A stretch of 41,881 nt of DNA from an uncultured Verrucomicrobiota bacterium (GTDB taxonomy: Bacteria > Verrucomicrobiota > Verrucomicrobiia > Opitutales > Opitutaceae): assembly GCA_913058185.1 (NCBI GenBank), contig CAJXQX010000030.1, positions 1 through 41,881 on the forward strand. Reading direction: 5' to 3'. This document shows positions 4,018-31,830 of the stretch, piece by piece. A program made the position numbers and the translations under genes. How positions within the stretch are numbered: the stretch's first letter is position 1; each line of letters opens with the position of its first letter. Under the pieces are notes generated by a model, which was given only the letters and a program-made list of their open reading frames with translations, was not told the DNA's origin and did not search any database.

Positions 4018-4522
4018 GATTTTCCACAGGGTTGAGGGCTTCGCGCAGTTTCGTGAGCGCGTATCTATAGCGGGACGCCGCCGTGTTGGCGGACAGATCA
4101 AGTTGTTCGGCGATTTGGGCGAAGGTAAGTCCGCCCCATACCTTAAGCACGACCACCTCGCGCTGTTCGGAAGGTAACTGCACCACCGCTTCTTCGAGCC
4201 GGTTGGCGCGTTCATTACCCTCGATCTTGGGATCAAACCAAGACTCCGCGTGCAGATCGACATGGGCTTGCCCACGCTTTTCGCGCCGATCTCGACTGCG
4301 CAACAGATCGAGCGCCGACCTACGAACCGAGGTAATGAGCAGCGGCAAGGGGTCGCCGCCCAGATGACGTTACTGACGCCAGAAGCGCACAAAAGCCTCC
4401 TGCACCACATCCTCGGCATCAGCCCCCGATCGGGTCCATTGTCGGGCCACCAAAAGCAACCGCGCCCCGTAGGTATCAAACCACGGGCGCCAATCAGAAG
4501 CGGATGAAGAGGAGGCGGACAT
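4010..4522 (-). pseudogene. ECF-type RNA polymerase sigma factor with in-frame TAA at codon 51
   Basis: Reading from ATG at 4522, the first 50 codons give sigma region 2 (DAEDVVQEAFVRFWRQ), then TAA at 4370-4372, then in the same frame RHLGGDPLPLLITSVR, a linker, and region 4 with LPSEQREVVVLKVWGG and a helix-turn-helix (FAQIAEQLDLSANTAASR) ending NPVENHG at 4010. Both halves are needed: region 2 for the -10 element and core binding, region 4 for the -35 element. The stop falls where homologous proteins simply continue, and CAA (Gln) would differ by one base. A TTG at 4348 could restart region 4 alone, which would not be a working sigma factor. It forms a pair with the overlapping membrane protein gene downstream. 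Decay, error or leaky readthrough cannot be separated here. Confidence 0.85.
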
Positions 4523-24020: not shown

Positions 24021-24848
24021 ATACCCCATTTTCGTCTCGCCCTGTTTCTAAATAGTGGCGCCGCCGTCATCGCGGCGCCCGGTTCCCCCGTCCTCACGGT
24101 CGGAGTGCTATCCGATTCCAATACGAGCAATTCGATTCGGCAGCAAAAGGACGACTCGGCTGCCACCGCGAGTATCAGTTTCTCCTCCCTGCGCGTGATT
24201 GATCGCAACTGGCAGGGCAACATCCGCCTGAACGCCAGCACCAGTCGTTGGAAAAAGTTCGGCGGCCTCGATCTCTGACCCATTTCCGTGCAAGGTGGTC
24301 TTCGGCGTAAATTCGGGCTTGGCTCCTACGCCCCTACCTTGGATTTCTCCATGGAACTCGGCCGCCGTTTCGCTTCAACGAGCACCCGCACCAGTAATTT
24401 CGGGATGGGCAAACTCACCTTCTCGCAACGGATCAATCCCTCCCTGCGTTGGCATGCTTCCGCCGAGATCGAACGCCACTCCGCCCGTCGCGCCGTCTTC
24501 TCGACGACTCGCCACGTGTTTCGGATCGGGGGCGATTATGATCTCAACGAGAACTGGAGCGCGTCCGTGAGCATCGGTCACGGTAAAGGCGACCTCGTGT
24601 CGTGGTGTCGACTTAGTTTTCCCGAGTTTCTCGGCACGACCCAATGGCTCGATGGCATCTTCGGCGGAGATTGGTTCCCCTACCAAACCATCAGCAATAC
24701 AACCTTGGGCCACTTCAGTCTATTGCGCGCGCTCGGACCTAACCGTGCGATGGCCGTCAGTGCCGATTTCGCCAAGTCAGTCGGGACCGGCAAACCCCAC
24801 ACCTATTTCAACGATATCTACAGCCTCCAATACATCCATGCGTTTTAA
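24021..24848 (+). pseudogene. Outer-membrane beta-barrel-like protein, in-frame TGA at codon 86 and no standard start codon
   Basis: One frame is coherent from 24021 to 24848. It begins ATA, then PHFRLALFLNSGAAVIAAPG, which looks like a signal peptide, then alternating beta strands (VLTVGVLSDSNTSN, ASISFSSLRVID, NIRLNASTSRWKKFGGLDL), a TGA at 24276-24278, and then PISVQGGLRRKFGLGSYAP and further strands to YSLQYIHAF, ending in an aromatic residue as barrels do. ATG to ATA and CGA to TGA would each be one base change. A GTG at 24288 could start the second half, but without a signal. Its last codons overlap the ATG of the cupredoxin gene by 11 bp. The role is unknown; context suggests partnership with the cupredoxin and cyclase. 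Confidence 0.68.
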
Positions 24849-25514: not shown

Positions 25515-27077
25515 ATGATTCAGTTGCGCAGTTTTCGCTCCAAGCTGCTTGCGCTTTCCCTCCTCGCGGTCGCCACGACTCAAATCGCGACTTACTTCAT
25601 CGTTGATGCGGTCAGCCACCGCGAAGCCCGGGCCGAGATCAGCGAAAACCTACGGGTTGCGGCCATCGCATTCCAGCGCGTCACAACCGAGCGTATCAGC
25701 TTAATCGCTACAAGCGCGACCGCCGTCGCCAGCGACTACGCCTATCGTCAGAACTACTTAGAATTCATCGAAGATCCCCAGACGCTGCAGTCCGCCTTTA
25801 CCTCCGCCAGCGCTCGAATCGATGCCGACCTGAACGCGTGGGTCGACCTAGACGGTATCACCGTCACAAGCACCCCCGCGGCCACAGACGAGAACTTCAT
25901 CGAGACCGTTTTCCGCGCCGATGAAAGCGAAGGCGCCCGGGCATTCGGATATGTGGAGATTAATCACGAGCTTTACGTCATCGTCGCGGTGCCCATCCGC
26001 GCACCGAACATCGGCGCATGGTGGATCGTAGGTTCACGGGTCAATCATGCTTTGGCCATAACCCTGCAGGAAATGACCGCGATCGATGTGAGCTTCAGCA
26101 ATACCGATCACGAAATCGTTGCCTCCAGTTTGCCCGCGGCAACCCGCACGTCGCTCGGGCAGTTGATCGCCTCCCTCCCGGCTGACCCCAATCAGATCCA
26201 CACCCTCGACTTAGCTGGGGAATCCAGCTTAGTAAAAGTGCTACCGATGAGCCTCGACTCCGGAGCGACATTTGCGGCGGCGCTGCAATATTCCCTCGAC
26301 GAAAAACTCGAGCCCGCTCGCCGCCTCAGTCGTCTCATTCTCCTTATCACCGCCGGTGGCCTGGCTTTGGCCTGTGTGCTGGGTCTCGGGTTTGCCCGAC
26401 GCCTGAGCAAACCCATCCAAACGTTGGCGGCCCACACTCGGGTCATTACCGCGGGGGACTACGAGACCCGGCTTCACCTGAACCGCATCGACGAATTAGG
26501 CGATCTCGCCAACGCATTTAACGATATGAGCAGCGGCCTAGCCGAACGCGATCAAGTGCGAGATTTGTTGGATAAAAACGTATCCCCCGAAGTGGCCGCT
26601 CAGCTGATGCGCGAGGGCTCTGGACTTGGCGGCGAAGAGCGCGAGGTTACGGTGCTTTTTGCGGATCTTCGTGGATTCACCACGCTGAGCGAAAACATGC
26701 CGCCACGTGACGTGGTGACCCTCCTCAATCGTTACCTCGATTGTATGGCCCAAGCCATCGAAGCCGAAGATGGCGTGATCGATAAATTTATCGGCGACGA
26801 AATTATGGCGCTCTTCGGCGCACCCATCGCGGGTGAAAACTCAGCGCTGCGAGCCATCAAAGCCGAGTTCGCTACCGAGGGGGTTCCCCCACTGGAATTC
26901 GGCATCGGAATCAACACGGCTCCGGTAATCGCCGGAGATATCGGCTCCAGCCGTCGACTCAACTATTCCGTGATCGGCGACGGCGTAAACCTTACGGCCC
27001 GACTCCAATCGCAGACCCGTAACCCAGAATTCGCGCTGGAACTTGAGGCGGACCACTTCCTGTTGGTTCTTCGGTAA
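25515..27077 (+). CDS. Membrane adenylate/guanylate cyclase with extracytoplasmic sensor and HAMP, 3' end lost
   Basis: Starts at ATG 25515, with GGAG 9 bases upstream. Membrane segment about 9-30, a sensor domain about 31-265 (cache-like), second membrane segment about 272-292 (LILLITAGGLALACVLGLGF), HAMP about 293-345, and class III cyclase from about 375: VLFADLRGFTTLSE with the first metal Asp, DKFIGDEIMALFGAP with the second, and RRLNYSVIGDGVNLTARL. The coherent part ends at TRNPEF (27032). The last 14 residues (ALELEADHFLLVLR) are antisense to a sigma gene and not cyclase. The usual 30-50 C-terminal residues are absent. The linker ALRAIKAEFATEGVPP is also about 15 residues shorter than usual, as if the helix with AMQxAL were missing. 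Activity is doubtful. Confidence 0.82.
   Translation: MIQLRSFRSKLLALSLLAVATTQIATYFIVDAVSHREARAEISENLRVAAIAFQRVTTERISLIATSATAVASDYAYRQNYLEFIEDPQTLQSAFTSASARIDADLNAWVDLDGITVTSTPAATDENFIETVFRADESEGARAFGYVEINHELYVIVAVPIRAPNIGAWWIVGSRVNHALAITLQEMTAIDVSFSNTDHEIVASSLPAATRTSLGQLIASLPADPNQIHTLDLAGESSLVKVLPMSLDSGATFAAALQYSLDEKLEPARRLSRLILLITAGGLALACVLGLGFARRLSKPIQTLAAHTRVITAGDYETRLHLNRIDELGDLANAFNDMSSGLAERDQVRDLLDKNVSPEVAAQLMREGSGLGGEEREVTVLFADLRGFTTLSENMPPRDVVTLLNRYLDCMAQAIEAEDGVIDKFIGDEIMALFGAPIAGENSALRAIKAEFATEGVPPLEFGIGINTAPVIAGDIGSSRRLNYSVIGDGVNLTARLQSQTRNPEFALELEADHFLLVLR
27027..27032. other. Junction of two truncated convergent genes at GAATTC
   Basis: To the left the plus strand reads as cyclase up to TRNPEF. 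To the right the minus strand reads as sigma factor up to LKFQREF. Both Glu-Phe pairs are encoded by the same GAATTC, and both proteins lose their family pattern immediately beyond it. The six bases therefore form a breakpoint with microhomology, or an EcoRI join. Confidence 0.75.
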
Positions 27078-27443
27078 TCGATCTATCAGGTCGAGCACGG
27101 CCGCCTGCGTTTCCGCGACTTCCAGGGACTTGCCCGGCCGAGCCTCGGCCGTGCTCACCCGTTCCATTTCGCCGTCGTTGAATGATCTCATCCGCCCCTC
27201 CTTCCGCATAACATCAACCGCGCGATTGCGACAGACGGTGTAGAGCCACTCGACCACGTGGTCCCGCACGGCGTACTCGGGTTGCTGGCATAAGCGCAGG
27301 AACGCGTCCTGCACGACATCTTGCGCTCGGTCGAAATCCCCACCCACCAGGCGGGCGACATAGCGCACCAGCGGTGCCTGATGCTGGCGCATCGCATCCG
27401 CGATCCAATTTTCTGCGTTTTCATGATAATCGGTCTTTTTCAT
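27027..27443 (-). pseudogene. ECF RNA polymerase sigma factor lacking region 4 helix-turn-helix
   Basis: From ATG 27443 the protein has region 2 (HQAPLVRYVARLVGGDFDRA, QDVVQDAFLRLCQQ, VEWLYTVCRNRAVDVMRKEG), a linker, and the start of region 4 (VLDLIDRLPKNQQEVVRLKF, then QREF). The helix-turn-helix that should follow (SYxEIxxVTxxSxxNV in close relatives) is replaced by sequence antisense to the cyclase gene; the frame stays open to 26841 by chance. It could bind core polymerase but not a -35 element. Sigma genes of this type are usually followed by an anti-sigma or target gene, which would have been lost in the same event (inference). Confidence 0.82.
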
Positions 27444-30785: not shown

Positions 30786-30837
30786 ACGGAATGCCTGACT
30801 TCCCCACCGACACCGCTCCCGTTGAAGCTGCAATCGT

Positions 30838-31830
30838 ATGAGTGATTCATCCGGGCCGTGGCGTCCGTTGGAAATCAACGTCCGCTTTACCGCCGAATCG
30901 CTGGCTGAGCTTCTGGACGGTGGCCAAGCATTCCGCTGGAATCGCCAACCCGACGGAGTATGGCGCGGACAATGGGCCAATCACGTGGTCGAGCTTTCGC
31001 TCGTGGGTCCGACGTCATTGCAGTGGAGGCCGATCACTCCCGATACCCTCACCTCAGCGGCAACGCTCCAACGCTACCTTCGCCTCGATGATGAACAACA
31101 CGATCTCCACCTCGACGTGTTACCCTGGCGCAGCGACGCCCATTTAAGGAAATGTATCACCGCATTCCCGGGACTGAGAATCCTGCGCCAACCCTTCGGC
31201 GAAACCCTTCTCGGATTCCTCTGCAGCGCCACGAAACAGATCGTGCAGATAAAACAAATGCAGGCGCTCCTGGCCGAACGCCACGGTAGCCTCACCGCCC
31301 TCAACTGTCATATTACACGTGACAAACCAGCCCACCCGCCACTATCACCTCCTCCAAATACCGACCCTAACTGTCATATCACAAGTGAAAATAGAATCTA
31401 TAGCACTGGTGATAAAGTGTTTATAATGCCTACTTGGCGGCAAATTGCAGAGCTTTCGGAGGAACAGCTGCGTGCGTGCCAACTAGGATTCCGGGCGCGC
31501 TACATCAAGGGCACGGCGGACTACATAAAGGCTCATCCGGGATGGTTGGAGCAGACGGCTGAGCTGCCTTATGCGGAAGCCAGGACCGCACTATGCGTGC
31601 TGCCTGGCGTCGGTGAAAAGATCGCCGATTGCGTCTCCCTTTTCGGACTTGGTCACCCGCAAGCGTTTCCGGTGGACACCTGGATGATCAAATCCATGGC
31701 CCGCCGTTACGGTTTGGACGGTTGGACGCCGACTCAAGTCGCCCACTTCGGACGCGTTCACTTCGGACCGAGTGCGGGACTGGCCCAGCAATACCTGTTT
31801 GCTTGGGAACGCGCCCACGGAGGGCGCTGA
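30838..31830 (+). CDS. OGG1-like 8-oxoguanine DNA glycosylase / AP lyase with in-frame insertion
   Basis: A 330-residue protein. The N-terminal OGG_N-like domain (FTAESLAELLDGGQAFRWN, residues about 16-35) is followed by the HhH-GPD domain. The hairpin is LPGVGEKIADC with the catalytic Lys261 (OGG1 K249), and the catalytic Asp280 is in PVDTWMIK (OGG1 D268). It removes oxidised guanine and cuts the strand. Between KQMQALLAERHGSLTAL and PTWRQIAELSEEQL there are about 40 extra residues (about 156-196) containing NCHITRD and NCHITSE, encoded by a repeat-bearing DNA insert. The insert lies between helices, where it may be tolerated. The frame is open throughout. Confidence 0.88.
   Translation: MSDSSGPWRPLEINVRFTAESLAELLDGGQAFRWNRQPDGVWRGQWANHVVELSLVGPTSLQWRPITPDTLTSAATLQRYLRLDDEQHDLHLDVLPWRSDAHLRKCITAFPGLRILRQPFGETLLGFLCSATKQIVQIKQMQALLAERHGSLTALNCHITRDKPAHPPLSPPPNTDPNCHITSENRIYSTGDKVFIMPTWRQIAELSEEQLRACQLGFRARYIKGTADYIKAHPGWLEQTAELPYAEARTALCVLPGVGEKIADCVSLFGLGHPQAFPVDTWMIKSMARRYGLDGWTPTQVAHFGRVHFGPSAGLAQQYLFAWERAHGGR
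31303..31424 (+). repeat. In-frame palindromic repeat insertion inside the DNA glycosylase gene
   Basis: Two copies of AACTGTCATATYACAMGTGA lie at 31303-31322 and 31369-31388 (two differences). The second copy forms a 10-bp inverted repeat with one mismatch: ATCACAAGTG (31378-31387) against CACTGGTGAT (31404-31413). The stretch is visibly richer in A and T than the gene around it. The outer borders are estimates from where the protein family pattern resumes. Confidence 0.72.

Follow-up and report, generated by a model that had tools for sequence, protein, structure and literature searches.

How did a signalling cyclase gene and an ECF sigma factor gene come to run into one another's ends? The window analysed here is a stretch of 41,881 nucleotides that makes up one whole contig (C30) in the assembly of an uncultured Verrucomicrobiota bacterium, and it carries the two genes as convergent open reading frames that overlap tail to tail around a GAATTC. 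A sequence-only reading had proposed that both genes lost their C-termini at that hexamer, either in a deletion through 6 bp of microhomology or by the joining of two fragments at an EcoRI site. The parent assembly (G000; 4.09 Mb in 159 contigs, 99.18% complete with 2.06% contamination) is the only one available for its species, and we compared the window with seven congeners, that is, other genomes of the same genus (G001–G007). A scan of titled genomes yielded 49 loci, none of them from a congener, the best showing 43% identity over part of the cyclase.

Both genes are truncated, since the corresponding congener proteins match their Pfam profiles further than those of the window do, and alignment to the congeners bears out the proposed loss of both C-termini. 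The cyclase gives HAMP and Guanylate_cyc matches, the latter ending at profile position 142 of 183, whereas a congener cyclase reaches position 179. Homology is kept through ...TRNPEF (27032), after which 14 residues are antisense sigma sequence; the four full-length congener cyclases continue for 44–55 residues beyond the homology retained in the window. An additional 13 codons, present in all four of these congeners (G001, G002, G003 and G007; codon alignment), have been lost in frame from within the catalytic domain. The complete domain expected of a class III cyclase is thus not found, given the internal 13-residue gap and the 44–55 missing C-terminal residues, and alignments of solved cyclases to an intact congener span most of the same internal stretch and the C-terminal end. 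Because these two pieces are missing, the window cyclase is probably non-functional. The sigma factor matches Sigma70_r2 only, its region 4 being unmatched, while an intact congener sigma factor matches both Sigma70_r2 and Sigma70_r4_2. The surviving part is 81% identical to its counterpart in G005, and the gene measures 175–178 aa in all seven congeners; the 39 residues that follow Gln136 there are absent from the window, which has 64 antisense-cyclase residues instead. Of the two regions that a functional ECF sigma factor carries, region 2 alone is therefore present, and since region 4 is the region that binds the −35 element, this sigma factor too is probably non-functional.

Table 1. Features of the cyclase/sigma locus and its surroundings, in window coordinates.
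Feature	Position	Strand	Basis
In-frame TGA in the gene two genes upstream of the cyclase	24276..24278	+	Translation against the open G005 orthologue
Cyclase ORF, full	25515–27077	+	Tail-to-tail overlap with the sigma ORF
HAMP–class III adenylate/guanylate cyclase gene, surviving part (residues 1–506)	25515..27032	+	Pfam and alignment to four congeners
39-bp (13-codon) in-frame deletion, cyclase catalytic domain	between 26864 and 26865		Codon alignment
ECF sigma ORF, full	26841–27443	−	Overlaps the cyclase ORF tail to tail
Sigma ORF read-through tail, 64 residues + stop, antisense cyclase	26841..27035	−	Translation and alignment
GAATTC, best read as cyclase Glu-Phe codons	27027..27032		Phe in 4/4 congener cyclases; sigma Gly opposite TTC
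Probable deletion joint, origin of three bases ambiguous	27033..27035		Cyclase side fits Ala (GCG); sigma fits from 27036
Cyclase ORF read-through tail, 14 residues + stop, antisense sigma	27033..27077	+	Translation and alignment
ECF sigma gene, surviving part, residues 1–136 (region 2 + linker)	27036..27443	−	Pfam
Second deletion scar, 16-codon mini-ORF MPDFPTDTAPVEAAIV	30791..30841	+	Comparison with G005

The congeners reveal what an intact locus looks like. In all four that hold both genes whole on one contig (G001, G002, G003 and G007), cyclase and sigma gene converge in the same order and orientation as in the window with extra DNA between them, and none shows the short tail-to-tail arrangement that would have made the truncated forms a normal state of the genus. 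The interval, measured between the Gln codon of the sigma gene and the Phe codon of the cyclase, amounts to 6,221 bp in G002, 5,541 bp in G007, 6,263 bp in G003 and 2,767 bp in G001. It holds sigma region 4 (39 residues), a VWA/YfbK-type gene directly after the sigma gene, the cyclase C-terminus (44–55 residues) and, in G002, G003 and G007 though not in G001, a gene whose product, of about 1,135 aa, has PATR repeats and a PEP-CTERM signal (Pfam run on the G002 and G003 copies). The earlier supposition, that the event cost the sigma gene its helix-turn-helix and the cyclase its C-terminus and took out anything between, was therefore sound; what lay between was the VWA/YfbK gene and probably the PEP-CTERM gene. 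Of the remaining congeners, G004 carries the sigma and VWA genes, together with an end of the PEP-CTERM gene, on a single short contig. G005 is the closest to the window in sequence, and its contigs stop within this interval, after 33 codons of the cyclase and 233 bp beyond the sigma gene. G006 keeps the sigma gene together with VWA residues 1–639, an orthologous cyclase not being listed; VWA residues 630-786, with one TAG, lie with the PEP-CTERM gene about 570 kb away on the same contig (split-VWA loci L054, L057 and L051, at C1:1118640-1122277 and 1689345-1691810), reflecting either a rearrangement or a misassembly. The VWA gene that follows the sigma gene in G007 is split over two overlapping ORFs in different frames, of 187 and 411 aa (L043:2712-4251), and may for that reason be frameshifted or broken. 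As the intervening genes vary and the VWA gene is not one open frame in these two congeners, the locus looks labile in the genus.

Outside the genus, the sigma gene followed by a facing cyclase recurs in three genomes of the family (G022, G029 and G031) at distances of 10–46 kb; in G010 the two lie megabases apart, and in other family genomes they are on different contigs or without a clear orthologue. The VWA neighbour is more widely shared: a motif scan of L023-L041 found, in 15 of 19 genomes, an N-terminal motif resembling DPRLTAYALGEL no more than 100 bp beyond the sigma gene; five of the seven congeners are among these, and BLAST placed the VWA gene after the sigma gene in the remaining two, G004 and G007. 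This direct adjacency suggests that the ECF sigma factor and its VWA/YfbK neighbour form a sigma and anti-sigma-like pair. Our literature search returned nothing on an ECF sigma/VWA gene pair, from which we claim no absence from print.

The lost pieces do not appear to survive elsewhere. A search of the window's genome, which is 99.18% complete, gave no match to the VWA protein, although the query did match all three other congeners searched; the PEP-CTERM protein likewise had none, that query giving strong matches in two of four congeners and a weak one in another. Full-length congener cyclase and sigma queries recovered only the truncated copies and distant paralogues from the window's genome; the displaced C-termini were not found there, although fragments of 39–55 residues could be missed. 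Neither lost C-terminus turned up as a separate copy, which disfavours any inversion or translocation in which the pieces would have been retained.

Where exactly do the two stumps meet? The proposal that the cyclase is coherent to the Glu-Phe at 27027–27032 is borne out: four congener cyclases align with it through a TRxxxF motif whose Phe (TTC, 27030–27032) is kept in all four, the wider family having mostly Tyr or His at this position, and directly afterwards the congeners read Ala/Asn/Gly, Thr, Asp against GCG CTG GAA in the window. The companion proposal, that the sigma gene is coherent to a Glu-Phe at the same bases, goes too far, as its secure homology ends at Gln (27036–27038). We compared sigma codons at 19 loci (L023–L041, one per genome), the best 19 of 50 matching other genomes; after LKFQ all 19 read Asn/Ser–Gly–Phe against Arg–Glu–Phe (CGC GAA TTC) in the window, the Gly codon being GGN throughout (GGA in 10, GGT in six, GGC in two, GGG in one) and Glu occurring at that position in none. 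Beyond Gln, only the Phe of the window sigma factor matches these homologues, and its complement, GAA, is the cyclase Glu codon. For this reason, and with TTC at 27030–27032 and the plus-strand triplet 27036–27038 as the last secure ones on either side, the join is best placed at 27033–27035, directly right of the GAATTC. Since the sigma ‘Glu’ occupies a Gly position in 19 of the 19 homologues examined, the hexamer itself is most likely cyclase sequence and the sigma ‘Glu-Phe’ an accident of reading. DNA spanning the joint was matched across the join in one of the eight genus genomes, the window's own, and on one side only in four congeners.

A check on base composition, suggested along with the original reading, gave no change at the join: GC content is 0.584 and 0.568 over the 2 kb on either side, and the tetranucleotide distance, averaging 0.138 over 44 split points, is 0.124 at the join. 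Nor do the stumps clearly show accelerated decay, there being no clear excess of substitution over their intact neighbours (two genes, the GDSL gene and one at 24.0–24.8 kb, were left out of this comparison). At columns otherwise fixed, the window is changed at 31 of 275 in the cyclase and 2 of 61 in the sigma factor, and at 37 of 305, 11 of 101 and 13 of 249 in the neighbours. Its cyclase has the most such changes of the five compared (8–23 in the others), as does its intact 843-aa neighbour. The pattern fits a recent event and offers no independent sign of decay.

Further lesions lie around the locus, at 24–31 kb, a stretch that seems to be decaying. Besides the 39-bp deletion, a gene two genes upstream of the cyclase contains an in-frame TGA where its G005 orthologue, which has a weak, sub-threshold Pfam match to an outer-membrane beta-barrel family (OMP_b-brl, 21.4 bits, cut-off 28.7), is open. 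Some 3.8 kb from the cyclase/sigma join, the beginning of a CP-ATP-grasp gene is fused to the final part of an Alpha-E gene in the mini-ORF MPDFPTDTAPVEAAIV; G005 has both genes, and relative to that genome about 2.5 kb has been lost there. The Alpha-E family (PF04168) has no match in the window's genome and matches in seven of seven congeners, two apiece in five of them, G004 having only the other, longer copy. An ATP-grasp query, run without a positive control, found no match in the window's genome. Far from this region, the window also contains a second ECF sigma-like frame (4423-4040, minus strand), interrupted by one TAA at 4370-4372, for which the fetched congener stretches hold only distant sigma relatives (27–32% identity).

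What, then, produced the join? The GAATTC that directly adjoins it could be taken for the seam of a cloning or library chimera, two unrelated fragments having been ligated at an EcoRI site; to this we give next to no credence, as both sides belong to one syntenic locus in the correct order and orientation, no composition step accompanies the join, and the sigma side would need GAA where the 19 homologues examined have GGN. The same codon burdens a deletion through perfect 6-bp microhomology, for which an ancestral sigma Gly would have changed to Glu (GGA to GAA) and so given GAATTC on both sides. A single substitution would suffice, since GGA for Gly (10 of 19) and TTC for Phe (15 of 19) are the commonest codons there, and when the joint DNA was compared by BLAST, one match, to the intact G003 sigma gene, did span the hexamer (query 88–187, from 27027). 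However, the match to the G007 cyclase in the same BLAST ends at query 93, or 27032; the required Glu is absent from the 19 homologues; the window sigma factor departs from the other seven congeners at just 2 of the 61 columns fixed among them; and the Asn/Ser before the Gly would also have had to become Arg, all of which makes this route highly unlikely. Judged from homologues rather than from the window's own parental allele, GAATTC is not found on both parental sides. Because each of the two would require a Gly-to-Glu change where all 19 homologues examined have GGN, the codon comparison leads us to reject EcoRI ligation and to disfavour exact 6-bp microhomology, so that of the deletion through microhomology first proposed, the deletion stands on the congener intervals and the perfect hexamer goes unsupported. 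The hexamer is mildly over-represented in the window (26 sites against 17.8 ± 3.8 in shuffles, none of 100 shuffles reaching 26), with two further sites, at 25761 and 26895, within the cyclase itself.

It is also conceivable that the locus is intact and that an assembler or gap closer misjoined two contig ends flanking an unassembled, repeat-containing interval. Such an error would suit a window that is one whole contig of a 159-contig assembly, from a species with no other assembly available; the contigs of sister G005 end in the same interval, which may therefore resist assembly, PATR repeats occur in the PEP-CTERM gene, and the surviving gene parts are not clearly decaying faster than their neighbours. 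Yet the VWA and PEP-CTERM proteins go unmatched in a genome that is 99.18% complete, and a false join would rest on merely a few shared bases. The 39-bp deletion, the nonsense codon and the second scar close by, together with the genome-wide absence of PF04168, argue moreover for real, lineage-specific loss. We therefore think an artefact rather improbable and favour, with good though incomplete confidence, a real lineage-specific chromosomal deletion of about 2.8–6.3 kb with the joint placed as above; the sequence itself shows the deletion, and the organism very likely carries it. A different suggestion concerns the outcome more than the origin, namely that the fused locus has been kept, with the sigma fragment lacking region 4 still acting as a competitor by binding core RNA polymerase or an anti-sigma factor and the two overlapping convergent transcripts, with 237 bp of complementary ORF, regulating one another; we hold it to be most improbable.

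We suggest that the deletion proceeded from an ancestral arrangement in which the cyclase gene faced the sigma factor gene across a VWA/YfbK gene adjoining the latter and, perhaps, a PEP-CTERM gene. It would have taken the cyclase C-terminus, sigma region 4 and the intervening gene or genes, among them the VWA neighbour of the sigma gene. The stumps would then have been joined immediately right of the GAATTC, and it is this joining that would make each ORF run into the antisense of the other. The better fit at the joint is homology of 0–3 bp, or else an imperfect match between cyclase GAATTCGC and a sigma complement GAATCCGC built from the codons of two congeners. With the sigma codons of G001 and G004 (AGC GGA TTC), the complement would be GAATCCGCT against cyclase GAATTCGC; the joint homology is clear for 0–3 bp and would extend to at most 8 bp with one mismatch if the ancestor had those codons. 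This imperfect GAATTCGC/GAATCCGCT match may have helped the joining, and it agrees with the BLAST result, in which the G003 sigma match starts at 27027 and the G007 cyclase match ends at 27032. Classical NHEJ is unlikely, as Ku (PF02735) was not found in the window's genome (0 matches; the control matched one of 14 genomes, B. subtilis), and for the same reason the stumps were likely joined without Ku, or by slippage, where homology was very short or imperfect. Bacterial alternative end joining (A-EJ), as set out in the review PMC6990116, involves resection by RecBCD, sealing by LigA and microhomology of 1–9 bp, and operates independently of Ku. The window resembles the A-EJ and illegitimate-recombination deletions known from bacteria in its multi-kilobase loss, its little or no joint homology and the lack of a detected Ku gene; it differs in that its mechanism is deduced from the joint alone rather than with ancestral sequences in hand.

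Several lessons follow for the reading of such loci. Neither the cyclase nor the sigma gene should be annotated as functional, and their tail-to-tail overlap is not to be taken as a regulatory arrangement. That a join lies next to a restriction site does not point to cloning, and the codons of relatives can shift a supposed microhomology by a few bases. The event itself is of an ordinary kind, a gene-loss scar of known type. Pseudogene pairs arise by deletion between convergent genes in the course of ordinary genome reduction, and the window resembles these in its truncated genes fused tail to tail and its syntenic flanks; the sole difference is that here the lost pieces come from a signalling cyclase and from an ECF sigma factor with its VWA neighbour.
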